This document shows, piece after piece, positions 7,264 through 52,048 of a DNA stretch of 64,000 nucleotides. The DNA comes from Quisquiliibacterium transsilvanicum (GTDB taxonomy: Bacteria > Pseudomonadota > Gammaproteobacteria > Burkholderiales > Burkholderiaceae_E). The notes under the pieces are model-generated. The model worked only from the letters and a program-made list of their open reading frames with translations. It did no database searches and was not told where the DNA came from. The position numbers and the translations under genes were made by a program. Location of the stretch: positions 434,001-498,000 of the forward strand of contig NZ_JACHGB010000002.1 in assembly GCF_014202215.1 (NCBI RefSeq). The letters run 5' to 3'. The number at the start of each line of letters is the position of its first letter. The stretch's first letter is position 1.

Positions 7264-7274
7264 GGCGACGCCGC

Positions 7275-29440: not shown

Positions 29441-29475
29441 CGCATCCGCGCGGGCGCATCGACGAGCTGAGGAGG

Positions 29476-31064: not shown

Positions 31065-31099
31065 AGGGCCGGGCCCGCCTCGGGGTATCCCCTACAGGG

Positions 31100-31109: not shown

Positions 31110-31164
31110 TCGCGCGGCCGTCCCGCTGTCGCTAGCATCCGGAACCCTTCAAGGAGATTCCAAG

Positions 31165-32415: not shown

Positions 32416-32420
32416 GGGCA

Positions 32421-32445
32421 GCGCGGCGGCATTGCGTCGCCGCGC
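32421..32445. terminator. hairpin in the 3' region of the binding-protein gene
   Basis: Perfect 8-bp arms GCGCGGCG and CGCCGCGC around a 9-nt loop, starting 6 nt after the stop. First of two consecutive hairpins between convergent genes. Confidence 0.45.
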
Positions 32446-32462
32446 AAGCAGGTGACCACGCA

Positions 32463-32482
32463 GGCGGCCCTCGCGGGCCGCC
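32463..32482. terminator. bidirectional terminator hairpin between convergent genes
   Basis: Perfect 8-bp GC arms GGCGGCCC and GGGCCGCC with a TCGC tetraloop, followed by TTGTCATT on the plus strand. It lies between the stop of the binding-protein gene and the stop of the TsdA-like gene, so it can end both transcripts. Confidence 0.65.
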
Positions 32483-32485
32483 TTG

Positions 32486-35755: not shown

Positions 35756-36634
35756 ATGGACACGATCGTCGCAGCGACCGACTACTCGGCCTGGGCGCAT
35801 TACGCGCTGGAGCGCGCCGCCCAGCTTGCGCGCGGCAGCGGCGCTGAACTGCACGTTCTGCATGCGCCGTCGCGCGGTCGCTGGCCGCAGGGCGGCGGCG
35901 TGCTGAGCCAGTACTTCGGCAGCGGCAACGAGCCATCGTTCGAAGACGAGCGTGAACGACTCGCCGCCGAGGTCGCAGGGCCGGCGCGCCGCTTCCGCGT
36001 CAAGCCGGTGTGTCATGTGCTGCCTGGGCGACCGGCCGAGGAGATCGCCGCCTTCGCCAATGCGCGCGAGGCCGGGCTGGTCGTGGTCGGCAGCCGTGGC
36101 GAGAGCGGCCTGCGCGCCCAGGCAGTGGGCAGCACCGCGCTGAAGGTGATGTGGCAGTCGCTGACGCCGGTGCTGATGGTGCGCCAGCCGGTGGACGTCG
36201 CCTACCGGAAGGTGCTGGTCGCCACCGACCTGTCCGAGCGCTCGCTGCACGTGGTGCGCACCGCGCTGGACGTGTTCCCCAAGGCCGCGGCCACGCTGCT
36301 GCATGCCTGGCGCGGCGAGTTCGAGACCACGCTGGAACTGACCGGCGCCACCGCCGACGCGCGGCGCCGCTACATCGCCGCCGAGGGCGAGGCGGCGGCC
36401 GCAGCGCTGGAGGACCAGCGCTCGCGCGCGCTCGACGGCAGCCGGCGCAGGCTGGCGCGCTTCATCGCGCACGGGCATCCGCTGCCGGCCATCCAGAAGG
36501 CGGTGGCCGAGCTGCAGCCGGACGTGGTGGTGCTCGGCAAGCACTCCGGGCCGCGCTGGCAGGAGCAGGTGCTGGGCAGCGTCGTGCAGAATCTGCTGCA
36601 GCAGTTGAAGGTCGACGTGCTCGTGGTGGCCTGA
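35756..36634 (+). CDS. universal stress protein, two UspA domains
   Basis: A 292-residue protein with two tandem Usp domains. The first (IVAATDYSAWAHYALERAAQL) ends in an ATP-binding-like VVVGSRGESGLRAQAVGSTA; the second (KVLVATDLSERSLHVVRTAL) ends VVLGKHSGPRWQEQVLGSV. Tandem Usps are frequent in facultatively anaerobic and denitrifying bacteria under FNR-type control, but no FNR box is visible upstream. ATG 35756 follows GGGGAAACG. Confidence 0.88.
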   Translation: MDTIVAATDYSAWAHYALERAAQLARGSGAELHVLHAPSRGRWPQGGGVLSQYFGSGNEPSFEDERERLAAEVAGPARRFRVKPVCHVLPGRPAEEIAAFANAREAGLVVVGSRGESGLRAQAVGSTALKVMWQSLTPVLMVRQPVDVAYRKVLVATDLSERSLHVVRTALDVFPKAAATLLHAWRGEFETTLELTGATADARRRYIAAEGEAAAAALEDQRSRALDGSRRRLARFIAHGHPLPAIQKAVAELQPDVVVLGKHSGPRWQEQVLGSVVQNLLQQLKVDVLVVA

Positions 36635-38174: not shown

Positions 38175-40070
38175 TCAGCGTCCGCCCGCAGGAACGAAGG
38201 CGTCGGAGAAGCAGGCGTCCTCGGACAGCCCCTGGGCGACGAAGGCCGGGCGCGCCGCCTCCACCATCCGCACCGAGCCGCACGCATAGACCGCGTATCC
38301 GGACAGATCGGGATGGTCGGCGAGGATGGCTTCGTGGACCAGGCCGATGCGGCCCTTCCATCGGTCTTCGGGTGAGGGCTCGGAGAGCACCGGCACGAAG
38401 CGGAAGTTCGGGTGCTCCTGCGCCCAGCGCTCGGGCAGCTCCGCCATGTAGAGGTCGCGCCGGCTGCGCACGCCCCAGTACAGGATCAGCGGGCGCTCGA
38501 TGCCGAGGATGAAGGCCTGTTCCAGCAGGCTCTTGACCGGTGCGAAGCCGGTGGCGCCCGCCACGAAGATCAGCGGCTTGTCGCTGGGCTCGTGCAGCGT
38601 GAAGCTGCCGACCGGGCCCTCGAAGCGCACGCTGTCGCCGACCTTCATCGTCTCGAACAGCGCGGTGGTGAAGCGTCCGCCGGGCACCAGCCGAACGTGC
38701 AGTTCGATCGTGCCGGTGCTGCCCGACGGGCCGGTGAACGAGTAGCTGCGGCGTTCACCGCCGTCGAGGATGACGTTGATGTACTGCCCGGCTTCGAACG
38801 CGATCCGTTCGCCCTCGGGCAGGCGCAGCGCCAGCAGCATGACGTCATGCCCGATCGGGTCCAGGCGCTCGATGCGCGCCGCGTACTCGCGGATCTCGGT
38901 GCCCCGCCTGGCCGCATCCTCTTCGTACTCGAACTCGACGTCGGATTTCGCGCAGGCGCAGCACAGCAGGATCCGGCCTGCCAGCCGCTCCTGCTCGCTG
39001 AGCGCGCTGGCCTGGTAGCCGGTCATCTCGACCTCGCCGCCGATCATGGTGGCCTTGCACACGCCGCAGCCGCCCGAGCGGCACTCGTAGGGAAGGGCGA
39101 TGCCGGCGCGCAGTCCGGCGTCGAGCAGGGTTTCGCCGTCGCGCACCGGCGCGCTGATGCGGCCAGGATGGACCGTCATCTGCATCGGCGCGCCCTTGCC
39201 CGCGCGCTTGGGCGGCAGCCAGGGCAGGGCGACCAGCAGCAGCGTGGCCCCGCCCACCGCGAGCCACAGCTTGATCGGATCCCAGGCGTAGATCAGCGGG
39301 TAGACGGTGAGGTAGAACCAGTCGAAGGACACCGTCTGCGGCGTGGTGGCGAGGTTGGCGGGCGGGCCGCTGACCACCGGCTTGACCAGCGCGAGCGCCA
39401 CCAGCATCAGCACCAGGCCGATCGCCAGCCGCCGGGGCGGCACCAGCGCCGCGCGCGGCACCCGCTGCGTGTGGATCCACAGCGCGAGCAGCATTACCAG
39501 CGGAATGCCGATGTGCAGGAAGGACAGCAGCGAGAAGAGCCGGTCGCTCACCGCCTCCGGCGAGATGAAGTTGCGCGTGAGGATGCCGTTGAAGACGGGC
39601 AGCGCGTCCATCCACTCGGTGGTGGCGACCACGACGAACTGCGCGAGCTGATCCCAGGGCAGCATGAAGCCGTTGATGCCCGAGGCGTAGACCAGCCACA
39701 GCACCACGACTCCCGACACCCAGGAGAAGGCCCGGAAGCTGCGGTAGCGGTCGAACACGAAGTGGCGCAGCATGTGCAGCAGCATCGTCAGCACCATCGC
39801 GTCGGACGCGTAGCGGTGCACGCTTCGCAGGATGCCGCCGGCGAACCACTGGCCGCTCGTGATCCGCTCCATCGACGAGTAGGTCGTTTGCAGGCCCGTC
39901 TCGTAGAACGCGTACAGGTACAGCCCGCTCGCCACCACGATCCAGAACATCCAGTAGCTGATCGTGCCGAGGTAGTACATCGGGTTCAGGCGATCGCCGA
40001 ACACCCGGTTGCCGACGGCCTCGAAGCGCAGGAACACCCACTGGCCGAGTTTCTGGATCTGCTTCAGCAC
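38175..40070 (-). CDS. cytochrome b fused to 2Fe-2S ferredoxin and FAD/NAD(P) reductase
   Basis: A 631-residue fusion. Residues 1-260 are a cytochrome b N-terminal domain (b6-like) with all four haem-ligating His, spaced 14 apart: H85/H99 and H186/H200. Further membrane helices run to about 305. A plant-type 2Fe-2S domain follows (ECRSGGCGVC near 329-337 and LCCAC near 370), then a ferredoxin reductase-type FAD domain (RRSYSFTG) and an NAD(P) domain (VAGATGFAPVKSLLEQ). It could pass electrons between NAD(P)H and the quinone pool or a membrane acceptor. The start is GTG 40070 with AGGGAG upstream, 13 bp after ctaA, so the two form an operon. A similar fusion has, from memory, been noted in Accumulibacter. 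Confidence 0.88.
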   Translation of the reverse strand: MLKQIQKLGQWVFLRFEAVGNRVFGDRLNPMYYLGTISYWMFWIVVASGLYLYAFYETGLQTTYSSMERITSGQWFAGGILRSVHRYASDAMVLTMLLHMLRHFVFDRYRSFRAFSWVSGVVVLWLVYASGINGFMLPWDQLAQFVVVATTEWMDALPVFNGILTRNFISPEAVSDRLFSLLSFLHIGIPLVMLLALWIHTQRVPRAALVPPRRLAIGLVLMLVALALVKPVVSGPPANLATTPQTVSFDWFYLTVYPLIYAWDPIKLWLAVGGATLLLVALPWLPPKRAGKGAPMQMTVHPGRISAPVRDGETLLDAGLRAGIALPYECRSGGCGVCKATMIGGEVEMTGYQASALSEQERLAGRILLCCACAKSDVEFEYEEDAARRGTEIREYAARIERLDPIGHDVMLLALRLPEGERIAFEAGQYINVILDGGERRSYSFTGPSGSTGTIELHVRLVPGGRFTTALFETMKVGDSVRFEGPVGSFTLHEPSDKPLIFVAGATGFAPVKSLLEQAFILGIERPLILYWGVRSRRDLYMAELPERWAQEHPNFRFVPVLSEPSPEDRWKGRIGLVHEAILADHPDLSGYAVYACGSVRMVEAARPAFVAQGLSEDACFSDAFVPAGGR

Positions 40071-40083
40071 ATGCGGCTCCCTG

Positions 40084-41175
40084 TCATGCGTGCCGCCCTT
40101 CGGCGGTTCGCAGCGAATGGTTGACGGCCAGTGCCGCCATGAACACCAGCGCCGCCACGCCCTGGTGCGTCGCGCCCAGGCCGACCGGCACTGCGGCCAG
40201 CAGCGTCGCGATGCCAAGGGTAACCTGCAGCGCCACCAGAGCCAGCAGCAGGTGCGCGGTGCGCGTCGCCCGGTCGCCCGCCCCGGCGCGGCGCACGCGC
40301 AGCCACAGCAGCGGCGCCAGGACGGCGAGCAGCCAGGCGCCAAGGCGATGATCGAACTGCACCGTGGCCATGTTCCAGAAGAAATTGCGCCACCACGGCT
40401 CCAGCATCAGGATCTCGGGCGGAACCCAGTGCCCGTTCATCAGCGGGAAGGTGTTGTAGGCCTTGCCGGCCCGGATGCCCGCGACCAGCCCGCCGGTCAG
40501 CACCATCCACACCACCGCGCCGGTCACCCAGAAGGACAGCCGGCGGGCGCCCCGCAATGCAGCACCGCCGCCCTGCAGCCGGCGCGGGTGCAGCAGATCG
40601 AGCGCCACCCACAGCATCGCCCCGAGGATGAGGAACGCGAGCGACAGGTGGGCGGTGAGCCGGAACTGCGACACCCGCGGATCGTCGACCAGGCCGGACT
40701 TGACCATGTACCAGCCCATCGCGCCCTGCAGTCCGCCAAGCACGAAAATGCCCGCGAGCTTCAGGCCCAGCCGCGCGCCGACGCGGCCGGTAGCTGCGAA
40801 CCAGAGCAGCGGCAGCAGGAAGACGATGCCGATCAGCCGGCCGAGCAGCCGGTGGAAGTACTCCCACCAGAAGATTCCCTTGAAGTCCTGCAGCGACATC
40901 GCGTGGTTGACCAGGCGGCCTTCGGGCGTCTGGCGGTACTTCTCGAAAGTTTCCAGCCACTGCGCGTCGTTCAGCGGCGGCAGCGTGCCGACGATGGGCG
41001 CCCACTCGACGATGGACAGCCCCGAATGGGTGAGCCTGGTGACGCCGCCCACCACGATCATCGCCAGCACCAGCGCGCAGCAGGCGAGCAGCCAGGACGC
41101 CACCGCGCGAGGCGAGCGGCTGCCCGCATTCATGGTTGGCGCAAATGATCGATCGAAAATGTTGCTTTGCGTCAT
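40084..41175 (-). CDS. ctaA: haem A synthase, CtaA/COX15 family (first copy)
   Basis: A polytopic protein of about 363 residues that oxidises haem O to haem A. Family features include VVGGVTRLTHSGLSIVEW, WWEYFHRLLGRLIG (His ligand), QGAMGWYMVKSGL, and the second-half His in VQFDHRLGAWLLA. The start is unclear: ATG 41175 is used here, but an ATG 16 codons upstream (41223) is in frame and neither has a good ribosome binding site. It diverges from the oxidase small subunit, sharing a promoter region with an FNR/DNR-type box. It implies that the neighbouring enzyme uses a-type haem. Confidence 0.9.
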   Translation of the reverse strand: MTQSNIFDRSFAPTMNAGSRSPRAVASWLLACCALVLAMIVVGGVTRLTHSGLSIVEWAPIVGTLPPLNDAQWLETFEKYRQTPEGRLVNHAMSLQDFKGIFWWEYFHRLLGRLIGIVFLLPLLWFAATGRVGARLGLKLAGIFVLGGLQGAMGWYMVKSGLVDDPRVSQFRLTAHLSLAFLILGAMLWVALDLLHPRRLQGGGAALRGARRLSFWVTGAVVWMVLTGGLVAGIRAGKAYNTFPLMNGHWVPPEILMLEPWWRNFFWNMATVQFDHRLGAWLLAVLAPLLWLRVRRAGAGDRATRTAHLLLALVALQVTLGIATLLAAVPVGLGATHQGVAALVFMAALAVNHSLRTAEGRHA

Positions 41176-41269
41176 GACGTCAGGGCTGGGTGCGTGTGAG
41201 GATGCATTCAAGCGTCGTTCCATCGGGCCGGAAATGCCGCGAGGTTACTCGGGGGTGCATGTAGAACCT

Positions 41270-41283
41270 TTGACTGCGATCAA
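41270..41283. promoter_or_regulatory. FNR/DNR/NnrR-type box upstream of the oxidoreductase operon
   Basis: TTGAC-TGCG-ATCAA, a symmetric match to the Crp/Fnr-family consensus TTGAT-N4-ATCAA. It lies in the divergent region, 70 nt before the small-subunit ATG and 95 nt before the ctaA start used here, so it may control both directions. Confidence 0.7.
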
Positions 41284-41353
41284 GGCGGCTTGGGGGGCGA
41301 AATCAGGAACATCGCTGCCACGAGTTAAAAAACAAACTGGAGGGAGAACGATC

Positions 41354-41539
41354 ATGGCCGAACCATCGAACGAAGACCGCGCCGCGGGAACCGAAGAAGA
41401 GCGGATTCCGGTGATGCAGCAGGTGCTGGATAACCCGTTCCTGCTGCTGTTCATCGGTGTGGCCATGCCCACGATCCTCTACATCCTCTGGGGGGTGATG
41501 GAGATCGCGACGGTTCCCGTCAGTCCGCTGTCCAAGTGA
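41354..41539 (+). CDS. small single-TM subunit of the haem-copper oxidoreductase
   Basis: A 61-residue protein: a charged N-terminus (about 20 residues, rich in Glu and Arg) followed by one membrane helix (about 29-50, LLLFIGVAMPTILYILWGVM). It is the first gene of the oxidoreductase operon, preceded by GGAGGGAGAACG. Its size and position recall subunit IIa-like small helices of ba3-type oxidases or the small subunit of NOR-like enzymes. No metal ligands are seen. Confidence 0.75.
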   Translation: MAEPSNEDRAAGTEEERIPVMQQVLDNPFLLLFIGVAMPTILYILWGVMEIATVPVSPLSK

Positions 41540-41558
41540 CCGCGCCGAGGAGAATGCC

Positions 41559-42098
41559 ATGAGCGCAATCCTGCCTCCGCCGCGGCGGATATGGTGGAAG
41601 GAACCCGTCGACAAGGTCGAGATCATCTGGATCGTGATCGCCTTCGTCTGGTGCATGATCATGTTCTTCATGATGCCGTACTGGCATGTGTACGGTAAGC
41701 AGAACCTCTCTCCAGAAACCTACAAGGTCAGGCCCGAGCTGTTCGCCAGGGCCTCGCAGGAGATGGTGGACAAGTACACAGTGCGCACCGAGACCGAGCT
41801 CAAGATCCCGGTGGTCGCGCCGCCCGCCGGCAGCGACGTCTACCTGATCGCGCGCCTCTGGGACTGGTGGCCCATCCTCGAGCTGGAGAAGGACAAGACC
41901 TACCGCCTGCACCTCACGGCGATGGACTACCAGCACGGCTTCTCCCTGCAGCCCGAGAACATCAACATCCAGGTGCTTCCCGGGTATCAGCACGTGATCA
42001 CGATCCAGCCCAACCGTTCGGGCACCTACGCGATCGTCTGCAACGAGTTCTGCGGCATCGGGCACCACAAGATGGTCTCGAAGCTGTACGTGAAGTAA
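41559..42098 (+). CDS. CuA-containing subunit II of a NOR-like haem-copper enzyme
   Basis: A 179-residue protein with one N-terminal membrane helix (about 20-42) and a cupredoxin domain. The binuclear CuA site is complete: C-N-E-F-C-G-I-G-H-H-K-M supplies two Cys, His and Met, and an earlier His is in AMDYQHGFSL. It receives electrons from a soluble donor such as cytochrome c or a blue copper protein and passes them to subunit I. The single helix is as in ba3 or NOR-like subunit II; A-type oxidases have two. In norSY-type clusters the counterpart is NorS. Confidence 0.9.
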   Translation: MSAILPPPRRIWWKEPVDKVEIIWIVIAFVWCMIMFFMMPYWHVYGKQNLSPETYKVRPELFARASQEMVDKYTVRTETELKIPVVAPPAGSDVYLIARLWDWWPILELEKDKTYRLHLTAMDYQHGFSLQPENINIQVLPGYQHVITIQPNRSGTYAIVCNEFCGIGHHKMVSKLYVK

Positions 42099-42107
42099 GG
42101 GGGCACC

Positions 42108-43814
42108 ATGGCAACCGCCGCACCGATGTTCCGTGTCTGCCCCCGCTCGGGGCTGCAGTTCCACAAGTCGGCCGAGACGCTGATCAAGCTCAACGCCGTC
42201 GCCGCAGTCGTCGCGCTGCTGGTCGGGGGCGTGCTCGCGCTTCTGATCACGCTCACGCGCTGGCAGGCGATCCACCTGATCGACGCCGACAATTTCTATC
42301 TGTTCCTGACCGCGCACGGGCTCGACATGCTCGTGGTCTGGATCATCTTCTTCGAGATCGCGATCCTGTATTTCTGCTCGTCGACCCTGCTGCGCTGTCG
42401 ATTGGCAACGCCACGGATCGCCTGGCTCGGGTTCGCACTGATGGTGATCGGCACCATCACCTTCAACGTGGCCATCTTCACCGGCAACGCGACGGTGATG
42501 ATGACCTCGTACGTGCCGATGCCGGCCCATCCGGCCTTCTACCTCGGCCTGATCCTGTTCGCCGTGGGCGCGCTGATCGGCTGCTTCGTCTTCCTGGGCA
42601 CACTGGTGGTCGCCAAGGCGGAGAAGACCTACGAAGGCTCGGTGCCGCTGGTCACCTTCGGCGCGCTGACCGCCTGCATCATCGCGATCTTCACGATCGC
42701 CTCGGGCGCGATCATCCTGATCCCGACCTGGCTCTGGTCGATCGGCTACATCTCGCACATCGATCCCGCGATGTACCGGGTCATCTGGTGGGCCTTCGGG
42801 CATTCGTCGCAGCAGATCAACGTCAGCGCCCACGTGGCGGTCTGGTACGCCATCGCCGCGATCGTGTTCGGCGCCAGGCCGATGTCCGAGCGCATCAGCC
42901 GCACGGCCTTCCTGCTCTACATCTGCTTCCTGCAGCTGGCCAGCGCGCACCACATCCTCGCCGATCCGGCGGTGGGCACCGAGTGGAAGATCTTCAACAC
43001 CAGCTATGCGATGTACCTGGCGGTGCTGGCGTCGATGATCCACGGTCTGACGGTGCCTGGCGCGATCGAGGTCGCGCAGCGCGAGAAGGGCTACACCAAG
43101 GGTCTGTTCGAGTGGTTGCGCAAGGCGCCATGGGGCAACCCGGTGTTCTCGGGCATGTTCATCTCGCTGATCGGCTTCGGATTCCTGGGCGGCATCTCCG
43201 GCGTGATGATGGGCACCGAGCAGCTGAACATGATCATCCACAACACGATCTACGTGCCCGGCCACTTCCACGCCACGGTGGTGATCGGCACCACGCTCGC
43301 GTTCATGTCGATGACCTACTTCCTGCTGCCCACGCTGTTCAACCGGGAGATGATCCTGCCGGGCTGGGCGAAGTGGCAGCCGTACGTCTTCGGCCTGGGG
43401 ATGGGCGTGTTCACGCTGGCGATGATGGGCGCGGGCACGCTGGGCGTTCCGCGCAGGCACTGGGACATCACCTTCGCAGGCGCCGCGCTGCCCTACGAGT
43501 TCCCGGGCGCGGCGCTGCTGATGATCGCGATCTTCGGCGTGGCCGGGGTCATTGCGGTGATCGGTGGGGCGATGTACATCATCATCACCGTCGGTACGCT
43601 GCTGTTCGGCAAGAAGCTCGATGCGGGCGCCTACACCCACAAGGTCGACCCGCTGCGCCTGCCGATGCAGGCGGCGCTCAGCGGCCACGGCGGTCACGGT
43701 GGCGGCTTCGCTGCGCCGGGCACCTTCGTGTTCGCGCTGGTCTTCCTGGTGGCCTTCATCCTCTACTACTTCGTGAACTGGAAGTACCTGTCCACGGTGT
43801 GGGGGCTCAGCTGA
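42108..43814 (+). CDS. haem-copper oxidoreductase subunit I with Gln at the Tyr position, NOR-like
   Basis: A 568-residue protein with 12 or more membrane helices. Haem and copper ligands are present: H70 (low-spin haem, in TAHGLDML), H232 (CuB, in AFGHSSQQ), H281/H282 (CuB, in SAHHILAD), H386 and H388 (in VPGHFHAT). In O2-reducing A- and B-type oxidases a Tyr four residues after the first CuB His is cross-linked to it; here that residue is Gln236. A Glu (E83) sits in helix II. These features, with nnrS and SenC neighbours, favour a nitric oxide reductase of the sNOR/eNOR kind over an O2 reductase. The C-terminus has a His/Gly-rich loop (GHGGHGGG). Confidence 0.88.
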   Translation: MATAAPMFRVCPRSGLQFHKSAETLIKLNAVAAVVALLVGGVLALLITLTRWQAIHLIDADNFYLFLTAHGLDMLVVWIIFFEIAILYFCSSTLLRCRLATPRIAWLGFALMVIGTITFNVAIFTGNATVMMTSYVPMPAHPAFYLGLILFAVGALIGCFVFLGTLVVAKAEKTYEGSVPLVTFGALTACIIAIFTIASGAIILIPTWLWSIGYISHIDPAMYRVIWWAFGHSSQQINVSAHVAVWYAIAAIVFGARPMSERISRTAFLLYICFLQLASAHHILADPAVGTEWKIFNTSYAMYLAVLASMIHGLTVPGAIEVAQREKGYTKGLFEWLRKAPWGNPVFSGMFISLIGFGFLGGISGVMMGTEQLNMIIHNTIYVPGHFHATVVIGTTLAFMSMTYFLLPTLFNREMILPGWAKWQPYVFGLGMGVFTLAMMGAGTLGVPRRHWDITFAGAALPYEFPGAALLMIAIFGVAGVIAVIGGAMYIIITVGTLLFGKKLDAGAYTHKVDPLRLPMQAALSGHGGHGGGFAAPGTFVFALVFLVAFILYYFVNWKYLSTVWGLS

Positions 43815-44755
43815 CTGGGATCCCGCGGACGCGGGAACGGGCTGGCGCGGCGCAGGCCGGCCCGTTTCCCGCGGCACGTTCCCTGGCGCCGGCCCGCCGG
43901 CGCAACACCGAAGCGGCGAGGCCGGCGCGTTGGTTCCGATCCCGTCTCGCAGCGCTGCTGGCGGTGATCGCAGTCTTCCTTGCGGCGCTGCCCGGCCTTC
44001 TGCCCGCCGCTCATGCGCAGGAGAAGGAAGCGGAGAAGGACTGGCGCGCGGTGCTCGCGGTCAGCCAGGCGGCGATGGGGCGCGAGATCGGCGACTTCCG
44101 CTTCACCGACAGCAAGGGCAGGGAGGTCGCGTTCGCCGACTTCCGCGGCCGGCCGCTGCTGGTCAGCTTCGTGTACACCGGCTGCTTCCAGGCCTGCCCG
44201 GTGGCGACCAAGTTCCTGATGGAGGCGGTGGAGACGGCGCGCAAGGCGCTCGGCGACGACCGCTTCAGCGTGGTGTCGATCGGCTTCAACCAGCCCTTCG
44301 ACAATCCGGTGGCGATGGCGTCCTTCGCGCGGCAGAACGGCATCGACGATCCGCGCTGGTTCTTCCTCACCCCGCGCGCCGGCGAAGTGGAGGCGCTGAC
44401 GCAGCGATTCGGCTTCGTCTACGAGGCCACGCCCAAGGGCTTCGATCACGTCACCCAGGTCAGCGTCGTGGATCCGAAGGGCGTGATCTACCGGCAGGTG
44501 TACGGCGAGAACTTCGACCTGCCGATGCTGGTGCAGCCGCTCAAGGAACTCCTCTCCGGCCAGGCCTCCGAGTCGTTCACCGTGGAGAACGTCTGGGAGA
44601 AGGTGAAGCTCTACTGCACGGTGTACGACCCCAACTCGGGCGGCTACCGGGTCAACTACGGGATCTTCTTCGAGATCTTCGCGGGACTGACCACGCTGGG
44701 CGCGATCGCCTGGGTGGTGATCCGGGAGCTGCGCAGGCGGCCGCGCGGCGCATGA
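43799..44755 (+). CDS. SCO1/SenC copper chaperone with C-terminal membrane anchor
   Basis: A thioredoxin-fold protein that delivers copper to the CuA site. The copper motif is T-G-C-F-Q-A-C-P (CxxxCP) with the distal His in GFDHVTQVSVVDPKG. A signal-like hydrophobic segment precedes PAAHAQ, and a C-terminal membrane helix (IFAGLTTLGAIAWVVI) follows the domain. The start is unresolved: GTG 43799 (overlapping subunit I) is the only canonical codon before the signal region, but it gives a long Arg-rich leader and places a hairpin inside the gene. A non-canonical CTG downstream is possible. SenC also accompanies norSY in ammonia oxidisers. Confidence 0.8.
   Translation: MGAQLTGIPRTRERAGAAQAGPFPAARSLAPARRRNTEAARPARWFRSRLAALLAVIAVFLAALPGLLPAAHAQEKEAEKDWRAVLAVSQAAMGREIGDFRFTDSKGREVAFADFRGRPLLVSFVYTGCFQACPVATKFLMEAVETARKALGDDRFSVVSIGFNQPFDNPVAMASFARQNGIDDPRWFFLTPRAGEVEALTQRFGFVYEATPKGFDHVTQVSVVDPKGVIYRQVYGENFDLPMLVQPLKELLSGQASESFTVENVWEKVKLYCTVYDPNSGGYRVNYGIFFEIFAGLTTLGAIAWVVIRELRRRPRGA
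43836..43866 (+). other. hairpin just after subunit I
   Basis: AACGGGCTGGC pairs with GCCGGCCCGTT (10 of 11 positions) around a 9-nt loop, 22 nt after the subunit I stop. It may attenuate transcription so that the SCO protein is made in smaller amount than the structural subunits. Confidence 0.4.
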
Positions 44756-44828
44756 TCCAGCGCGCGTGCGAACCGGCAGGCCGATGCGCGCCCGCCGCTG
44801 CCCAGGCCCGTCCGTCGGGCACGTTGAC

Positions 44829-44842
44829 TTGACGCGGATCAA
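44829..44842. promoter_or_regulatory. FNR/DNR/NnrR-type box upstream of the cytochrome b-ferredoxin operon
   Basis: TTGAC-GCGG-ATCAA, with the same half sites as the box at 41270. It lies 76 nt before the ATG at 44918 and suggests that this five-gene set has its own promoter under the same regulator. Confidence 0.7.
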
Positions 44843-44917
44843 AGCCTGCTGCCCTCGGTGCAGCGGACGATCGGCACATGGGAGGCCCGTCTGGCTCCTG
44901 CGCTCCCGCCGATCCAG

Positions 44918-46540
44918 ATGAACAGTCGCGTCTTCGCTCCCACCAACCCTGCCGAGGCCGACCTGCCCGGCAGCGGGCGGCTCGCGGGTCTGGTGCGCAG
45001 GGTGGAGCGGGGCTTCGACGCGGCCTGCGGCGAGGCGGACAATCCGCTGCGCCAGCTCGGCGCGCTCGGCTTCCAGCTGTTCTGGCTCGTCTCGCTCACC
45101 GGCGCCTACCTCTACATCTTCTACGACACCAGCGTTTCTGGCGCCTGGACGTCGGTCGAGCGGCTCACGGTGGACCAGTGGTGGGCGGGAGGCGTGATGC
45201 GCAGCCTGCATCGCTACGCGTCGGATGCCTTCGCGCTGGTGATCGCGGCGCACGTGCTGCGCGAGCTGGCCTACGGACGCTTCCGGCACTTCCGCTGGTA
45301 CACCTGGCTCACCGGCGTGCCGACGCTCTGGCTGGCCGCCGCCTCCGGCGTGATCGGCTACTGGCTGGTCTGGGACGAGCTCGCGCAGTTCGTCGGCGTC
45401 GCGGTCACCGAGTGGTTCGGGGCGCTGCCCGGCTTCGGGCCCGCGCTGGTGCGCAACTTCATCGCCGAGTCGGCGATGTCGGACCGCTTCTTCTCGCTGC
45501 TGGTGTTCCTGCATATCGGCGTGCCACTGGTGCTGCTGCTGGCGATGTGGGTGCACATCCAGCGGCTGGCGCGTGCGCGCACCGTGACCAGCCGGGCGGT
45601 GGGCGGCTGGACCTTCGCCGCGCTGCTGGCCTTGTCGCTGGCCGCGCCGGTGGTGTCGCTGCCGGCGGCGGACCTGTCGCGGGTGCCGGCGAACGTGCCG
45701 ATCGACTGGTTCTACCTGGCGCCGCTGCCTGCGATCTACGCTGTCTCCCCCGAGGCGGTGTGGGCGGCAGCGGCGGCGCTCACCGTGCTGCTGGGCGCGG
45801 TTCCCTGGCTGGGGCGCCGCACGCCGCCGCCGCCGCCCGCCAAGGTGGATCCGGACCATTGCAACGGCTGCACCCGATGCTTCGTCGACTGTCCATATTC
45901 GGCGATCACGATGGCGCCGCATCCGAGCGGCCGTGGCGAGATCGCAGTGGTGGCCGACGACCTGTGCGCGAGCTGCGGGATCTGCGCGGGCGCCTGCCCG
46001 TCGTCGACGCCGTTCCGGTCGCGGCAGCGGCTGGTCAGCGGAATCGACCTGCCGGACCGCGAGGTGGGGGACTTGCGCGACGCGCTTGGCAGCGCGCTGG
46101 CGCGGTCGACCGCCGAGGGCGCCTCGCCCCTGGTGCTCTTCTGCTGCCAGCGCGGCGCGGGCCTGGGGCCGGATGAGGATGCCGGCCGCGCGGACGGGGT
46201 GCTCGCGTTCGGGCTGCCCTGCGCGGGAATGCTGCCGCCGTCCTTTGTCGAGTACGCCTTGCGTCATGGCGCTGCAGGTGTGATGGTTGCGACCTGCCCG
46301 GGCGAAGATTGCGAGTTCAGGCTCGGGGTGCAGTGGACGGCGGAGCGGCTGCGCGGCGAGCGCGAACCCTACCTGCGGGCGTCGGTCGACCGGGCACGGC
46401 TGCGCACGGTGGCGGCGGCGCGCGAGGAGCGCGCGGGCCTGCGGCGGGCGCTGCAGGCCTTCAGGCAGGAGCTCTCGGCACCCGGCGCCGATGCGCCCGG
46501 AGCCGAGGCATCACAACGGAATCGACGGGAATCGACATGA
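44918..46540 (+). CDS. cytochrome b fused to 2x[4Fe-4S] ferredoxin and MvhD-like domain
   Basis: A 540-residue fusion. Residues about 40-270 are a cytochrome b N-terminal domain with four haem His, H98/H112 and H199/H213, closely similar to the fusion at 38175. After further helices come two 4Fe-4S motifs (C315-N-G-C-T-R-C-F-V-D-C-P and C350-A-S-C-G-I-C-A-G-A-C-P). From about residue 405 a domain resembling the delta subunit of methyl-viologen hydrogenase follows (LFCCQRGAGL, LPCAGMLPPSFVEYALRHGAAGVMVATCPGEDC). This suggests electron exchange between the quinone pool and a low-potential or thiol partner. ATG 44918 was chosen over GTG 44858, which lies closer to the FNR box. The stop overlaps the next gene. 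Confidence 0.85.
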   Translation: MNSRVFAPTNPAEADLPGSGRLAGLVRRVERGFDAACGEADNPLRQLGALGFQLFWLVSLTGAYLYIFYDTSVSGAWTSVERLTVDQWWAGGVMRSLHRYASDAFALVIAAHVLRELAYGRFRHFRWYTWLTGVPTLWLAAASGVIGYWLVWDELAQFVGVAVTEWFGALPGFGPALVRNFIAESAMSDRFFSLLVFLHIGVPLVLLLAMWVHIQRLARARTVTSRAVGGWTFAALLALSLAAPVVSLPAADLSRVPANVPIDWFYLAPLPAIYAVSPEAVWAAAAALTVLLGAVPWLGRRTPPPPPAKVDPDHCNGCTRCFVDCPYSAITMAPHPSGRGEIAVVADDLCASCGICAGACPSSTPFRSRQRLVSGIDLPDREVGDLRDALGSALARSTAEGASPLVLFCCQRGAGLGPDEDAGRADGVLAFGLPCAGMLPPSFVEYALRHGAAGVMVATCPGEDCEFRLGVQWTAERLRGEREPYLRASVDRARLRTVAAAREERAGLRRALQAFRQELSAPGADAPGAEASQRNRREST

Positions 46541-47046
46541 CGGCTGGCACATTGGTGAGATACGGGGGGCAGGCGGTGCTCTACGCGCTGTTCGCGGGCT
46601 TCGTTGGCTGGTTCTCCTCTTCGCCCCCGTACCGGCACCTGGAGGAGGACCAGGCGCTGCTGCGCCTGTCCTTCAAGCATCCGGGGCAGTTCGTGACCGA
46701 CTGCCGGGCGCGCGGCGCCGAGGAACTCGCCAGCATGCCGCCGCAGCTGCGCGCAGCGATGGACTGCCCGCGCGAGCGCTCGCCGGTGCGCGTGCGTGTG
46801 CAGCTCGACGGAGCGCCGCTTTATGACGAAGTGTTCGCGCCCGCGGGGCTGCGCCGCGACGGAGCGGCCAGCGGCTACCGCCGGTTGCCGATCGTCGCCG
46901 GCGAGCACCGCCTGGTGGTCCAGGTCAACGACGATGTCCGCGTGGAGGGCTTCACGCATGAGCGCGCCGAGACCGTGCAGCTCAAGCCCGGCGAGGTGGT
47001 GCTGATCGATTTCATCGCGGACCGCGGGGGAGTGGTGATCCGATGA
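46537..47046 (+). CDS. membrane-anchored protein of unknown function in the NOR-like cluster
   Basis: A 169-residue protein with one N-terminal membrane helix (about 10-27) and a periplasmic beta-rich domain ending VQLKPGEVVLIDFIADRGGVVIR. Two Cys (VTDCRARG and AMDCPRER) flank a short helix and could form a disulfide. I recognise no family. It is coupled at both ends by ATGA overlaps, between the cytochrome b-MvhD fusion and the second haem-copper-like protein, so it is probably an accessory or assembly part of that complex. Confidence 0.7.
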   Translation: MTAGTLVRYGGQAVLYALFAGFVGWFSSSPPYRHLEEDQALLRLSFKHPGQFVTDCRARGAEELASMPPQLRAAMDCPRERSPVRVRVQLDGAPLYDEVFAPAGLRRDGAASGYRRLPIVAGEHRLVVQVNDDVRVEGFTHERAETVQLKPGEVVLIDFIADRGGVVIR

Positions 47047-48467
47047 AGACCGAAGGGCTTGCCGGGCCTGCCGGCTTCCTGCGCGGAGCGCGCGAGGTGC
47101 GCGCGGTCGATCGCTTCGATCTGGCGACGCCCGCCGCCGAGCAGCGCGCGATGGCCGCCGGCTGGCTGGCGCTCGGCATCGCGGCGCTGATCGGCTCCGG
47201 CCTGTTCTCGGTGCTGCTGGTGCTTGCCCGCACGCCGCACGTGGCTGCCCTCATTCCCGGGGTGGACTTCTTCCACGTCGCCCTGGTGGTGCACGTCGAC
47301 CTTTCGGTGCTGGTCTGGTTTGTCTCGATGGCAGGCATGCTCTGGTCCTTCGACAGCGCCCGGCGCGCGCCGGGCCTGGGCTGGCTGGCGCTGTGGGCGA
47401 CCGCGATCGGCACCGTGCTGATGGCTGCCGCGCCGTTCATCGGCAGCGCGCGCCCGGTGATGTCCAACTACGTGCCGGTGCTCGAGAGCCCGGTCTTCCT
47501 CTATGGACTGGTGGTGTTCGGCGCCGGCTTCGCGATGCTCACGCTGCGCAGCTTCGTTGCCCCGGTGCGCATCGGGCTGGCGCTGGACGGCAGCGACGCG
47601 TTGCGCTTCGGCCTGAGGGCGGCGGCGGTGTCCGCTGCGATCGCGCTGATGGCAATGGCCTGGTCCTGGGCCGAGGTGCCGCGCGAGCTGGAAGGCAAGG
47701 CCTACTACGAGCTCCTCTTCTGGGGGCCCGGGCACGTCATCCAGTTCACCTGGACGCTGCTGATGCTGGTCGCCTGGACCTGGCTGGCGGCGCTGACCGG
47801 CTCGCCGCTGCCGCTGAGCCCGCGGATCGTGGTGCTGGTCTACGGGATCGGCCTGGCCTCGGTGTTCGTCGCGCCGCTGATCTACCTGAACTGGAGCGTG
47901 CTGTCGGTCGAGCACCAGAAGATGATGACCTGGCTGATGCGCTTCGGTGGCGGGCTGGCGATCCTGCCGATGGTGCTGGCGCTGGCGGTGGCGCTGCTGC
48001 GCGGCCCGCGCGCCAGCGACCGGACCCGGCCGCTGCGCGGCGCGCTGATCGCCTCGCTGGTGCTGTTCACGATCGGCGGCGGCATCGGTTTCCTGATCAA
48101 GGGCTCGGACGTGCGTGTGCCAGCCCACTACCATGGCTCGATCGTCGGGGTCACGCTGGCGCTGATGGGGCTGGCCTACGCGCTGCTGCCGCGGCTCGGC
48201 TTCGCGGCACCGCGCGGCCGGCTGGCCGACTGGCAGCCCTGGCTCTACGGCGGCGGCCAGCTGCTGCACATCCTCGGCCTGGTCTGGTCGGGCGGCTATG
48301 GCGTGCAGCGCAAGGTGGCCGGCAGCGGGCAGGTGCTGCGCAGCACCCAGGAAGTGATCGGCATGGGGGTGATGGGCTTCGGCGGGCTGGTGGCGATCCT
48401 CGGCGGCATCGCCTTCATCCTGGTCGTGCTGCGCAGCATGCGCGCGCGCGGCGAGGTGGCTGAATGA
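47043..48467 (+). CDS. divergent haem-copper oxidase subunit I-like protein without the CuB His pair
   Basis: A 474-residue protein with about 12 membrane helices, similar to cbb3/NOR-type subunit I. H84 (VVHVDLSVLVWF, helix II), H231 (GPGHVIQFTW, helix VI) and H362/H364 (PAHYHGSIVG, helix X) match haem and first CuB ligands. The helix VII His-His pair of CuB is absent; that region reads LNWSVLSVEHQKMM. It may therefore bind haem but not form a normal binuclear centre, acting in electron transfer, NO binding or assembly. Coupled by ATGA overlaps to its neighbours. Confidence 0.78.
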   Translation: MKTEGLAGPAGFLRGAREVRAVDRFDLATPAAEQRAMAAGWLALGIAALIGSGLFSVLLVLARTPHVAALIPGVDFFHVALVVHVDLSVLVWFVSMAGMLWSFDSARRAPGLGWLALWATAIGTVLMAAAPFIGSARPVMSNYVPVLESPVFLYGLVVFGAGFAMLTLRSFVAPVRIGLALDGSDALRFGLRAAAVSAAIALMAMAWSWAEVPRELEGKAYYELLFWGPGHVIQFTWTLLMLVAWTWLAALTGSPLPLSPRIVVLVYGIGLASVFVAPLIYLNWSVLSVEHQKMMTWLMRFGGGLAILPMVLALAVALLRGPRASDRTRPLRGALIASLVLFTIGGGIGFLIKGSDVRVPAHYHGSIVGVTLALMGLAYALLPRLGFAAPRGRLADWQPWLYGGGQLLHILGLVWSGGYGVQRKVAGSGQVLRSTQEVIGMGVMGFGGLVAILGGIAFILVVLRSMRARGEVAE

Positions 48468-49456
48468 TCCGTCGGCTGGCGCTGCTCGCCTGCATCTTCA
48501 CGCTCTGCATCAGCGCCGCGAGCGCCTTCATCCGCAACACGCAGGCGGGGCTCGGGTGCAGTCCCTGGCCGCAGTGCCTGGCACAGCAGGCCGAGGCCCG
48601 CGGCGGCAGCGGCATGCTGCGGATGGCGCCGTCGACCACCGGGCCGGGCGAGGTGGACGCGGTCTTCGTCGCGCGCGCGCTGCACCGGATCAGCGCTGTG
48701 CTGGTCGGCCTGCTTGCGCTCGGCATCGTGCTGTTCGGCTGGTCGCGCCTGGGCGCGTCGGACCGGGCCGCAGCCGCCTTCGCGCTCGTCGACACGGTGT
48801 TTCTCTCCTGGCTGGGGCGCTACACGCCGCACGATGTCCCGCTGGTCACGATCGGCAACGTACTCGGCGGCTTCGCGCTGGCCGCGGCCTTCGGCTGGAT
48901 TGCTGCGGGCGGAACCCGTGCAGGGCAAGCCGCCACGAGCGGGCGGATGTATCTCGCCTGGACCGCGCTGGCGCTGGCCGGCCTGCAGTCCGCCCTCGGC
49001 GTGACCATCGGCGCCCGGGATGCGGTGGGCGTCTGCGTGCGTCCGCTGTGCCTGCCGCAGGGGCCGGTCGATGCCGCGGTGTTCGATCCGCGGGTGGCGC
49101 AGGCGATCGCCAGCGCGGCGGACGGGCAGGCGCTGCATCTCGCGCATCGCCTGCTCGCGATCGTGGTGGCGGTGCTCGTGCTGCTGCTGGCGCTGCGGTC
49201 CGCGTCGCGGCCAGGGCCGCGAACAGCGTCGCGCTCAGGCTCGCAGACCGGCGGGGCGGCCAGTGCGCGGCGCAGGCCGGCGCTCGGCGCGCTCGCCTGC
49301 ATCCTGCTGCTTGCCCCCCTGGGGCTGGCCACCGCGGCGGGGCTGCTCGGCCCGGGCGGCGGCACGCTGCACAACGTGCTCGCCGGGACCTGCTTCGTGC
49401 TGCTGGCGGTGGCCGCCAGGCCGGCATCAAATCATGTTGGGATTGATTCGCATTAA
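48464..49456 (+). CDS. haem A synthase-like protein (second copy)
   Basis: A 330-residue CtaA/COX15-family membrane protein. Recognisable parts are ASAFIRNTQAGLGCSPWPQC (with the Cys pair of many bacterial CtaA proteins), ARALHRISAVLVGLLAL, and LHLAHRLLAIVVAVL with His ligands. It is distinct from the copy at 40084, so the cluster encodes two haem A synthases. The last codons and stop contain the FNR-type box of nnrS. The C-terminal third is Arg/Ser-rich. Confidence 0.82.
   Translation: MIRRLALLACIFTLCISAASAFIRNTQAGLGCSPWPQCLAQQAEARGGSGMLRMAPSTTGPGEVDAVFVARALHRISAVLVGLLALGIVLFGWSRLGASDRAAAAFALVDTVFLSWLGRYTPHDVPLVTIGNVLGGFALAAAFGWIAAGGTRAGQAATSGRMYLAWTALALAGLQSALGVTIGARDAVGVCVRPLCLPQGPVDAAVFDPRVAQAIASAADGQALHLAHRLLAIVVAVLVLLLALRSASRPGPRTASRSGSQTGGAASARRRPALGALACILLLAPLGLATAAGLLGPGGGTLHNVLAGTCFVLLAVAARPASNHVGIDSH
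49443..49456. promoter_or_regulatory. FNR/DNR/NnrR-type box upstream of nnrS
   Basis: TTGAT-TCGC-ATTAA, one mismatch from TTGAT-N4-ATCAA, 70 nt before the nnrS ATG and overlapping the stop codon of the second haem A synthase gene. It is the third such box in the cluster. Confidence 0.6.
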
Positions 49457-49526
49457 GGAAGTCCGTCGGCGCTGCCGATAGGCTCGCTGCCTGAACCGAT
49501 GCAAGGGCCGGGAGGGCCACGCAGCC

Positions 49527-50732
49527 ATGAGCAAGCAGCTGTTGCAGATCGAAAATCCGGCGCTGCCCCAGGCGGGCACGGGGGCCTTTGCCTTGTGGCG
49601 GCTGGGCTTCCGTCCTTTCTACCTGCTTGGCGCGCTGTTCGCTGCGCTGGGAATTCCACTGTGGGTGGCGGTCTTCGCCGGCTCGGTGGCGCTGCCGCAG
49701 GGGCTTCCCGCGCGAACCTGGCATGCGCACGAGATGGTGTTCGGCTTCGCGCTCGCGATCATCACCGGCTTCCTGTTCACCGCCGTGCGCAACTGGACCA
49801 GTCAGCCGACTCCGACCGGCGCGCACCTCGCAGCGCTCTGCGCTCTCTGGCTGGCGGCGCGCATCGCCTTTGTCGCGGGCGCCCCGGGACTCGGCATCGT
49901 CATCGAGCTCGCTTTCCTGCTGCTGGTGGCGATCGCGCTGCTGCGGCCGCTGCTGCGCTCGCGCAACCGCCGCAACTACTTCGTCGGCGTGCTGTTCGCG
50001 GTTCTGGCGGCGGCGGATGTGATCTTCTGGGCGGCGGGGCAGGGCCTCGCCGGTGGCGTCAACCCGGACGCCGTGGTGCGTTTCGGGCTCTACCTGGTGG
50101 CCACGCTGACATTCGTGATCGGCGGCCGCGTGATCCCGATGTTCACGGCCAGCGCCGTGCCCGGGCTCAGGCAGTTCAAGGATGCGCGGCTGGACCGTGC
50201 GGCGATCGGGGCCAGCGTGCTCGCCTTCGCGCTCGAGCTCGCCGGCGTGTCCGGGGCCGGGCTCACCGTGGTGGCTGCGGCGGCTGCGCTGCTGCACGCG
50301 ATCCGGCTGGCCGGATGGGGTCCGCGGGGAACGCTCGGCAAGCCCATCCTCTGGATCCTGCATGCTTCCTACGCCTGGGCTGCGGTGGGGTTCGCGCTGA
50401 TGGCGGCGGCCGCGCTTGGCTGGGTGCCGCGGACGCTGTCGGTGCACGCGTTCTCGGTCGGCCTTGTCGGCGGGCTGATCATCGGCATGATCACGCGCAC
50501 CGCGCTCGGCCACACCGGCAGGATGCTGATCGCCGGGCGCTCCGAGGCCGCGATGTACGCGATGGTGCAGCTGGCCGCGCTGCTGCGGGTGTTCGGGCCG
50601 CTGGTGGCGCCGGGGCAGACCCTGCGCATCATCGAGCTGTCCTCGCTGCTCTGGGCGGCGGCCTTCCTGCTGTATCTGGCGGTCTACTGGACGCGGCTGA
50701 CGCGTGCCCGGATCGACGGCCGCGACGGCTGA
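49527..50732 (+). CDS. nnrS: NnrS family protein
   Basis: A 401-residue protein with 12 predicted membrane helices. The family signature WHAHEMVFGFALAIITGFLFTAV is present, together with FVIGGRVIPMFTASAV and GMITRTALGHTGRML. NnrS is a haem- and copper-binding membrane protein, made under NO-responsive regulators in denitrifiers, that relieves nitrosative stress. It follows the haem A synthase gene with its own FNR-type box, tying the whole cluster to NO. Confidence 0.94.
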   Translation: MSKQLLQIENPALPQAGTGAFALWRLGFRPFYLLGALFAALGIPLWVAVFAGSVALPQGLPARTWHAHEMVFGFALAIITGFLFTAVRNWTSQPTPTGAHLAALCALWLAARIAFVAGAPGLGIVIELAFLLLVAIALLRPLLRSRNRRNYFVGVLFAVLAAADVIFWAAGQGLAGGVNPDAVVRFGLYLVATLTFVIGGRVIPMFTASAVPGLRQFKDARLDRAAIGASVLAFALELAGVSGAGLTVVAAAAALLHAIRLAGWGPRGTLGKPILWILHASYAWAAVGFALMAAAALGWVPRTLSVHAFSVGLVGGLIIGMITRTALGHTGRMLIAGRSEAAMYAMVQLAALLRVFGPLVAPGQTLRIIELSSLLWAAAFLLYLAVYWTRLTRARIDGRDG

Positions 50733-50743: not shown

Positions 50744-52048
50744 TCAGTCGCCCCGTTCGGGAACCAGCATCACCGGGCGGCGGCTCCGGCCCAGCACGCG
50801 CTGCGCGACCGAGCCCAGCAGGCTGGCGGCGAGCCCGGTGCGGCCCGCAGTGCCCAGGCAGACCAGGTCGGCGTCGATCGCATCGGCCGCGGCGACGATC
50901 GCGTCGGCCGGATCCTCGCCTTCGACCACGTCGGTCTCGACCGACAGCCCGCGCGCCTGGAGATCGGCGGGCAGCAGCGCCCTGAGCTGGGCCCGGCACT
51001 GCTCCTGCCACGCGGCATAGCGGGACTGCTGCCCGGGGTCTGCGGCCTGCACGGCGAGCGGGGCCGCGGGCATCGTCCTCTGGTTCACCACGGTCATGAT
51101 GCGCACCCGCGCGCCCTGCGGCAGCATCGCCAGTGCGAACCTGGCGGCGCGCCGGCCGTGCGGCGACAGGTCGGTGGCGATCAGCACGCGCCGGGCATGG
51201 CCCGCGGGGGCAGGGGCGAGGCGATCCGCGATGGAGGCGGGCGCGACCAGCACGTTCGCGCTGGCCGTGCGCATCAGCCCGACCGACACCGATCCGTGCA
51301 GCGCGCGGTCCAGTCCGCGGCGCTGATGGCTGCCGACCACGATCAGGTCCGCCGACTCATCCGCGGCGAGCGCGGCGATCCGCGCGGCAACGTCGTAGCC
51401 GGCCGGCGCGTCGGCGACCCGCACGGCGTCCGGACCGAGCCGCCGCTCGATGCGCTCGCGCAGCCGTGCGTGCGCGCCTTCGTCCGGCGCCTCATCGACG
51501 CCGGTCGCGACCAGCTCGCAGGGCGCCATCAGGCGCAGCCGGCGCAGCCACTCGATCGCGGCCTCCGAGGCGAGCGAAGCGTCGACGCCGCACAGCACCT
51601 TCAGCGCGCGGTCGCCCTCGAGCCACTGGCGCAGCCGGCCGGCGTCGCGCACCATCAGCAGCGGCGCGTCCGCGCTGCTCGAGACGCGCTCAGCGGTGCT
51701 GCCGAGCAGGCTGTGCGGCGAAGCGCCCGCGCCAGTCGCCGAGAGCAGGAGCAGTTCGGCGCCGCGCTCCTCGGCGGCGCGCAGCAGACCTTCGTCGGGC
51801 CAGCCCTCGAAGACCAGCGGCTCGACGCGCGCGCCCAGTGCGCGCAGCCGCGCGACTTCGTCGCCCAGGCGCTCGGCGGCCTGGCGCTGCAGTGCTTCCA
51901 GCACCGTCGCCTGGTTGAACATCACGCCGCGAGTGTCCAGTACGTGGACCAGGAGCAGGAGGCGGTCGAGCCGCCGGGCGATCAGCGCGGCCAGGCTCGC
52001 AGCCTCGGCGGCGGGAGGGCTGAAGTCGGTGCCGCAGACGATGTTCAT
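50744..52048 (-). CDS. universal stress protein with three tandem Usp domains
   Basis: A 434-residue protein formed by three Usp-like domains: residues about 1-145 (NIVCGTDFSPPAAEAASLAAL), 150-285 (KVLCGVDASLASEAAIEWL, ending VVGSHQRRGLDRALHGSVS), and 290-430 (RVLIATDLSPHGRRAARFAL, ending LGTAGRTGLAASLLGSVAQRVL). The second and third carry G-2x-G-9x-G(S/T)-like nucleotide-binding patterns. ATG 52048 starts the first domain; the longer frame has no support. It follows the SLC13 transporter by 19 bp, so they are likely co-transcribed. Confidence 0.85.
   Translation of the reverse strand: MNIVCGTDFSPPAAEAASLAALIARRLDRLLLLVHVLDTRGVMFNQATVLEALQRQAAERLGDEVARLRALGARVEPLVFEGWPDEGLLRAAEERGAELLLLSATGAGASPHSLLGSTAERVSSSADAPLLMVRDAGRLRQWLEGDRALKVLCGVDASLASEAAIEWLRRLRLMAPCELVATGVDEAPDEGAHARLRERIERRLGPDAVRVADAPAGYDVAARIAALAADESADLIVVGSHQRRGLDRALHGSVSVGLMRTASANVLVAPASIADRLAPAPAGHARRVLIATDLSPHGRRAARFALAMLPQGARVRIMTVVNQRTMPAAPLAVQAADPGQQSRYAAWQEQCRAQLRALLPADLQARGLSVETDVVEGEDPADAIVAAADAIDADLVCLGTAGRTGLAASLLGSVAQRVLGRSRRPVMLVPERGD

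Follow-up and report, generated by a model that had tools for sequence, protein, structure and literature searches.

A conserved gene cassette predicted to serve an eNOR-type nitric oxide reductase in Quisquiliibacterium transsilvanicum

We analyzed a 64,000-nucleotide stretch of the Quisquiliibacterium transsilvanicum genome (RefSeq assembly GCF_014202215.1; contig NZ_JACHGB010000002.1, positions 434,001 to 498,000; hereafter, the window) and found that eleven genes at 38175-50732, arranged in two divergent strand groups, belong to a real, conserved cassette that recurs across relatives and is therefore more than a chance assembly. At its center lies a haem-copper enzyme whose sequence places it in the described eNOR family of nitric oxide (NO) reductases (NORs), and we consider it probable (roughly 75%) that the block is a dedicated respiratory cassette for NO reduction by this enzyme. 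An earlier note on this DNA, made from the letters alone, had listed these genes and suggested an a-haem NO reductase with dedicated electron input. Coordinates and Pfam matches bore out the gene set, and the core idea held up through the eNOR signature, the neighborhood and the promoter boxes, while the enzyme itself, for which the note gave no family name, proved to be of a known family.

In the mechanism that we propose, a nitrite reductase would supply NO, which a haem-copper enzyme formed by subunit I, subunit II, and a small membrane subunit would reduce to nitrous oxide (N2O). The SCO protein would load the CuA center, CtaA, together with CtaB in most relatives, would supply haem A, and CuA would receive its electrons from a carrier in the periplasm or else from the membrane cytochrome b proteins that the cassette itself encodes. 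One of these proteins, which we call cytb-FlpD, would be the dedicated membrane electron-transfer partner and could link a cytoplasmic donor or quinol with eNOR; the other, a cytochrome b-NAD(P)H reductase fusion (cytbFNR), would be an optional second electron entry. The cassette may work in nitrite respiration or in NO detoxification at low oxygen.

The haem-copper enzyme carries the eNOR signature

The three enzyme genes lie on the forward strand in the order small subunit (41354-41539; 61 amino acids with a single transmembrane helix (TM)), subunit II (41559-42098; a CuA cupredoxin with one TM and a weak COX2 match of 26.4 bits), and, directly downstream, subunit I (42108-43814; COX1, 222.6 bits). 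TM6 of subunit I carries the motif G-H-S-S-Q-Q-I-N, and the histidine ligands of the haems and CuB are all present (H70, H232, H281, H282, H386, and H388); these residues, along with Q235 and Q236, are invariant in 25 aligned rows comprising the window protein and 24 relatives. In a joint alignment, the column of the oxygen-reductase Tyr reads Gln in 11/11 eNOR rows and Tyr in 13/13 B-family rows. In a tree of 45 haem-copper proteins, subunit I grouped with eNOR-type proteins of Thermus and Thermomicrobium (support 94/87; 11 rows), apart from the 13 B-family rows; the eNOR comparison rows were chosen by signature, none being matched by accession to a published eNOR, and four rows of the tree carried warnings for long terminal branches and seven for deviating composition. 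In subunit II, H126, C161, E163, C165, H169, and M172, which we take to be the CuA ligands, are conserved (105 rows). The 61-residue subunit has no family match in the Pfam search and retains P39, Y43, W46, G47, and P55 in all of 101 rows; it is like the small subunit IIa of ba3 oxidase, and we take the subunit plan of the whole enzyme to resemble that of a ba3-type oxygen reductase. The Gln signature, the metal ligands, the clade shared with the Thermus and Thermomicrobium proteins, and the CuA subunit II together identify the enzyme as an eNOR.

The family papers are said to be those of Hemp and Gennis in 2008 and of Murali and colleagues in 2024. The family is treated, with citation of those papers, in parts of PMC8756737, PMC11388526, PMC4653789, PMC8114936, and PMC10734462; in the relevant passages, the replacement of the oxygen-reductase Tyr by Gln is given as an eNOR mark and one proton channel is ascribed to the enzyme (PMC8756737), and eNOR is counted among the biochemically characterised families (PMC11388526). 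Separately, we noticed that the eNOR-type subunit I encoded on Thermus plasmids (L139:7998-9683 and L142:7998-9680) reads HFK rather than HFH in TM10, with Lys at the column of H388, the second His of that helix and the low-spin haem ligand.

The public annotation of relatives would make the enzyme a B-family oxygen reductase of the ba3 or cbb3 type. The fold is shared, the best-scoring solved structures are oxygen reductases including ba3 oxidases, and plasmid records annotate relatives as cbb3 or b(o/a)3 oxidases; set against this are the Tyr position, which is Gln in all 25 aligned sequences and Tyr in the 13 B-family rows, and the nitrite reductase association and promoter boxes described below, and we regard this reading as highly improbable. 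The identity of an ordinary cytochrome oxidase was rejected on the Gln signature. The enzyme is akin to cNOR and qNOR in being a haem-copper family member that would convert NO to N2O, but it has Gln rather than Glu, and CuA instead of haem c or a quinol site; cNOR or qNOR identity was ruled out on these grounds, and the genome's match to PF22085 lies on another contig. All six COX1-family matches of the source genome were accounted for as aa3, cbb3, cbb3-like, and qNOR proteins on other contigs plus the two in the window, with types assigned by sequence inspection and, for qNOR, also by PF22085. The cbb3-like protein (C1:518774-520015) has an extra N-terminal stretch and differs from ordinary cbb3. 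Close named relatives belong to the Burkholderiaceae and include Zeimonas arvi and Lautropia sp. SCN 69-89, with 92% identity in subunit I over the best segment.

The cassette is conserved around eNOR genes

A search of 369 genomes of the class gave subunit I matches at E<=1e-30 in 45, of which 34 were eNOR relatives (E<=1e-97) spanning 25 families; the other 11 (25-35% identical) were not counted as eNOR. For the neighborhood we assembled 100 loci (20 from the class genomes and the best 80 of the named-genome matches; 99 non-redundant at 95% nucleotide identity), within which 49 non-redundant wide-flank loci offered flanks of 9 kb or more on the downstream side and 4 kb or more on the upstream side and a laxer-flank set comprised 72. 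Gene presence was judged by tblastn cut-offs with simple gene calling, and the wide-flank loci, coming nearly all from the best 80 named matches, represent close relatives. The small subunit, subunit II, SCO, cytb-FlpD, and a single-pass anchored protein occurred in 49/49 wide-flank loci, together with I2, a second COX1-family protein, in 47, CtaB in 41, cytbFNR in 39, and CtaA within reach in 28; a CRP/FNR-type regulator was found in 18 and a nirS-like gene in 16. The 72 laxer-flank loci gave a similar picture (anchored protein and SCO, 71 each; cytb-FlpD, 69; I2, 67; CtaB, 60; cytbFNR, 47; CtaA, 34; nirS-like, 21). The predicted pairing of subunit I with a cytochrome b-MvhD fusion thus recurred in every wide-flank locus, with the fusion in 33/34 eNOR genomes against 1/335 others, and the idea that the enzyme has a cytochrome b partner dedicated to it and brings its own genes for haem A and copper assembly agrees with this neighborhood and near-perfect co-occurrence.

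The copper chaperone of the window copy is a SCO/SenC protein (43964-44755, forward strand, start uncertain; SCO1-SenC, 53.3 bits). The anchored protein (46537-47046, forward strand) has no Pfam or NCBIfam family match; its AlphaFold2 model (pLDDT, the model's confidence score, 95.8) shows a beta-sandwich domain for which a fold search returned no PDB match at E<=0.001, and C56 and C77 are invariant. In its Gln for Tyr, cupredoxin subunit II, haem-copper subunit I, and occurrence with nitrite reductases, the system is like the eNOR family as far as the cited sources portray it; unlike it, the window adds cytb-FlpD, the anchored protein, a CuB-less I2, SCO, and CtaA proteins, and most of these partners are absent within 8 kb of the Thermus and Thermomicrobium eNOR genes. 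We found no description of the cassette or of I2 in the literature searched, which did not cover the Murali 2024 paper, and the escort genes around eNOR look new.

Links to nitric oxide

The cd1 nitrite reductase family (PF02239, E<=1e-100) was found in 31/34 eNOR genomes vs. 42/335 other genomes (Fisher p 1e-21), and cd1-positive eNOR genomes occur in 23 of the 25 eNOR families; the genome counts, the family tally excepted, ignore shared ancestry, and PF02239 also covers NirN and NirF. The source genome has one cd1-type protein (contig C3). A qNOR-type match was present in only 7/34 eNOR genomes, the source genome included, and one of these matches is partial. In ten cd1-positive eNOR genomes, some incomplete (G008, G082, G157, G167, G214, G219, G227, G265, G268, and G341), the COX1 matches leave no other NOR candidate by score and length: they comprise A-type oxidases, cbb3 oxidases, and eNOR, joined by I2 in eight of the genomes; the weakest match in G219, G227, and G341 was taken to be I2.

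Scans with what we take to be the FNR/NNR-type box consensus detected three boxes with at most one mismatch in the whole window, all within the cassette, when 0.28 were expected from shuffles: TTGACTGCGATCAA in the divergent promoter region (41270-41283), TTGACGCGGATCAA 5' of the cytb-FlpD gene (44829-44842), and TTGATTCGCATTAA 5' of nnrS (49443-49456). Such a box stood upstream of the small-subunit gene in 42/100 sequences (99 loci and the window), compared to 99/4595 tiled windows and 47/992 windows of matching low GC content. Using cytb-FlpD as the query, a box lay at most 200 bases before the gene found in 15/84 relatives, a number that takes in at least one relative (L060) whose gene is a cytbFNR fusion.

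NnrS (49527-50732, forward strand; PF05940, 368 bits), which had been expected to be a conserved neighbor, was sporadic and was rejected as a core member (2/49 wide-flank and 3/72 laxer-flank loci; NnrS-like genes in 5/100 loci at a laxer cut-off). Since the box at 49443 precedes nnrS, the gene may nevertheless be co-regulated with the cassette in the source organism from this predicted box of its own.

Besides the two limits on the cd1 count, several observations weigh against a dedicated eNOR cassette. The source genome also has a qNOR (contig C5), and it gave no NosZ above the cut-off of TIGR04244, the sole NosZ model run. The Thermus and Thermomicrobium eNOR loci have no nearby cytb-FlpD, and therefore cytb-FlpD would be dispensable for eNOR in general. 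I2 is absent from 6/34 eNOR genomes and also stands beside ordinary oxidase genes in eNOR-less genomes. In an Accumulibacter paper (PMC6446978), aerobic expression is the group to which a 'ba3' oxidase and a haem A synthesis protein are assigned; were this 'ba3' to be eNOR, the finding would count against an anoxic role. Finally, haem A synthase is said to require O2 in the relevant part of PMC9145763, which sits oddly with an enzyme expected to be active when O2 is scarce, a puzzle on which the cassette bears.

NO reductases determine N2O release from denitrifying communities. In the plasmid records examined here, the annotation given to eNOR relatives is cbb3 or ba3 oxidase, so genomes that have a nitrite reductase and apparently 'no NOR' may have been misread. 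The cassette also names testable partners, namely the membrane protein cytb-FlpD and I2, a haem-copper homologue in which the CuB pair is missing.

Cytochrome b fusion proteins

The cytb-FlpD gene (44918-46540, forward strand) encodes a fusion of cytochrome b, two [4Fe-4S] motifs, and an FlpD/MvhD domain, as recognized by Pfam. Its two haem-b sites (H98/H112 and H199/H213) are invariant and 12 Cys are kept at 93% or more (82 rows). With at most three candidates scored per genome, cytb-FlpD was found in 33/34 eNOR-positive and 1/335 eNOR-negative genomes (E<=1e-50; p 8e-45), making it the tightest eNOR companion in the class, almost one to one. The only eNOR-positive genome without it is G264, and the only eNOR-negative genome with it is G215, which is 77% complete and belongs to a genus in which eNOR occurs. 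Because of its haem-b sites, [4Fe-4S] motifs, and FlpD cysteines, the protein could carry electrons between eNOR and either quinol or a donor in the cytoplasm, and we give even odds to its being the electron partner of eNOR. The domains are those of known proteins that contain MvhD/FlpD or are of the cytochrome b6 type (FlpD, 4Fe-4S, and cytochrome b); Table A3 of PMC8756737 lists one, the open reading frame RME88945.1, as having cyt b6, DMSOR-beta-like, and FlpD domains, and the relevant passages there draw no link to eNOR. In locus L161, cytb-FlpD, the anchored protein, ctaA, and I2 stand consecutively, apart from the eNOR genes on the same contig.

The second fusion, cytbFNR (38175-40070, reverse strand), joins a cytochrome b with four haem His to a [2Fe-2S] ferredoxin and an FAD/NAD(P)H reductase (Pfam Cytochrome_B, Fer2, FAD_binding_6, and NAD_binding_1). 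H85, H99, H186, and H200, as well as C330, C335, C338, and C370, are invariant in 53 rows aligned from 58 matches. A genome search with cytbFNR returned mainly stand-alone reductases and cytb-FlpD genes, and no co-occurrence count was drawn from it.

These fusions, along with I2, might instead supply electrons to haem A synthesis, as bacterial donors to CtaA, or feed a different low-potential reaction, haem d1 synthesis for instance, in which case their link to eNOR would run through haem. The cytbFNR gene follows the canonical ctaA after a gap of 13 bp, in the same orientation, and adjoins a ctaA in five further loci (L064, L073, L074, L077, and L096), its reductase half scores best with the oxygenase reductases MmoC and BenC, and I2 of eNOR-less genomes often adjoins ctaA, ctaB, or SCO. 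In contrast, the FlpD fusion tracks eNOR and not CtaA: none is near I2 in the loci of eNOR-less genomes, and it is absent at E<=1e-50 from 334/335 eNOR-less genomes, many of which are presumably haem A makers. We judge a haem-synthesis role for the fusions to be unlikely, and favor electron transfer to eNOR as the setting for cytb-FlpD.

Haem A synthases

Two haem A synthases had been proposed for the block, and only one of them is canonical. The first CtaA (40084-41133, reverse strand, start uncertain; COX15-CtaA, 362 bits) retains both the catalytic-half Glu and the catalytic-half His, as do all 7 comparison CtaA proteins. The second, ctaA2 (48464-49456, forward strand), scores only 41.9 bits, above the family cut-off of 29.9; it keeps the Cys pairs, but the catalytic-half His is Asn and the Glu is Arg, so that it lacks the two residues that we equated by motif with E57 and H123 of the B. 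subtilis enzyme. Among 29 further ctaA2-like rows, picked by similarity and by design of the search mostly from eNOR loci, the His position is always Asn and the Glu position is Arg, Thr, Ala, or Gly, never Lys. A CtaA type 1.1 variant with E57K and H123N is listed for Accumulibacter and Acidiferrobacteraceae in Table 1 of PMC8239418; like ctaA2, the variant has two Cys pairs, Asn for His, and a lost Glu, and unlike the ctaA2 rows, which mostly have Arg, it has Lys at the Glu position. A term search of the main text of that paper did not return 'nitric oxide'.

The window copy of the cassette lacks a CtaB gene; on contig C6, a UbiA-family gene situated roughly 5 kb away from the aa3 gene is a candidate for the heme O synthase. 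In Thermomicrobium roseum, a CtaA-CtaB fusion-like gene annotated as heme o synthase (L140:9817-11619) is directly downstream of the eNOR genes.

I2, a second haem-copper homologue

The gene for I2 (47043-48467, forward strand) encodes a protein with a weak COX1 match (49.5 bits). This second haem-copper-like protein of the note keeps the haem ligands in TM2 and TM10 (H84 in 89/90 rows; H362 and H364 in 90/90), but at the CuB site only the TM6 His is retained and two of three ligands are gone. The His-His pair of TM7 is absent from 17/17 I2 rows and present in 11/11 eNOR and 13/13 B-family rows of the joint alignment, although I2 and eNOR are very divergent in TM7 and the pairing of residues there rests on the alignment; this lost pair also sets I2 apart from ba3-type oxygen reductases. 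H231 and Q234, near the former place of CuB, are conserved in 90/90 rows, and a Gln three residues after the TM6 His (H-x-x-Q) is common to I2 and eNOR and occurs in no B-family row. Profile comparison linked I2 with eNOR at a probability of 99.8% and paired H231 with the eNOR TM6 His. In the tree, I2 formed one clade (100/100) that joined eNOR (100/98), with a long I2 branch and some rows differing in composition, indicating that I2 is a separate family, sister to eNOR subunit I. The AlphaFold2 model of I2 (pLDDT 89.5) had ba3 oxidases as its best Foldseek matches. The loss of CuB ligands, together with the separate clade, led us to reject the readings of I2 as another catalytic oxidase and as a subunit I duplicate.

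I2 was present in 28/34 eNOR genomes and 18/335 eNOR-negative genomes, counts that leave out a weak 34% match in G061 and cross-matches of 27-31% to eNOR itself, and the 18 eNOR-negative genomes led us to reject I2 as an eNOR-only partner. By eye, I2 of eNOR-less genomes stands beside ctaA, ctaB, SCO, or COX genes in L143, L147-L151, L158, and L159, distant copies stand beside cytochrome c biogenesis-like genes in L153, L154, and L157, and neither kind of neighbor is seen in L144, L146, L152, and L155. Because copies in eNOR-less genomes adjoin assembly genes, a role in making or wiring haem-copper enzymes, beyond NO chemistry alone, is suggested. Most likely, I2 is a haem-only homologue without substrate reduction at CuB, acting in haem delivery or assembly or as an electron-wire subunit. 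In L145, from a genome without detected eNOR, I2 (6334-7716) adjoins the anchored protein (7891).

A catalytic I2 whose site holds another metal or haem alone, for instance an NO-binding or NO-reducing haem enzyme, would be compatible with an eNOR cassette. The conserved haem ligands, H231 and Q234 of the 90 rows, and the H-x-x-Q in common with eNOR fit such an enzyme, and a His near TM7, at position 291 in 70/90 rows and at column 284 in 29/90, would allow another ligand set; the loss of two of three CuB ligands in 17/17 compared rows and the several eNOR-less copies next to oxidase-assembly or cytochrome c biogenesis-like genes speak against it, and we hold it to be a minority possibility. 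Somewhat more doubtful is a joint reading in which I2 founds a CuB-less haem-copper branch, sister to eNOR, and acts as a haem carrier in biogenesis or electron wiring for eNOR as well as for aa3 oxidases, cytb-FlpD feeds eNOR, and the CtaA variant without Glu and His yields haem made or handled unlike ordinary haem A, perhaps needing less oxygen.

Flanking genes

Universal stress protein genes flank the cassette on both sides (35756-36634 and 50744-52048). Between the first of these and cytbFNR, a gene at 36711-38075 encodes a 454-residue polytopic protein of no Pfam or NCBIfam family, in which helix His are, by eye, reminiscent of membrane haem proteins; weak relatives (26%) were seen near eNOR in loci L039 and L047. 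Further upstream, a cluster resembling Sox-type sulfur oxidation genes occupies 22662-33523, with molybdopterin, 5'-nucleotidase-domain, and SoxA-type cytochrome proteins among its members.

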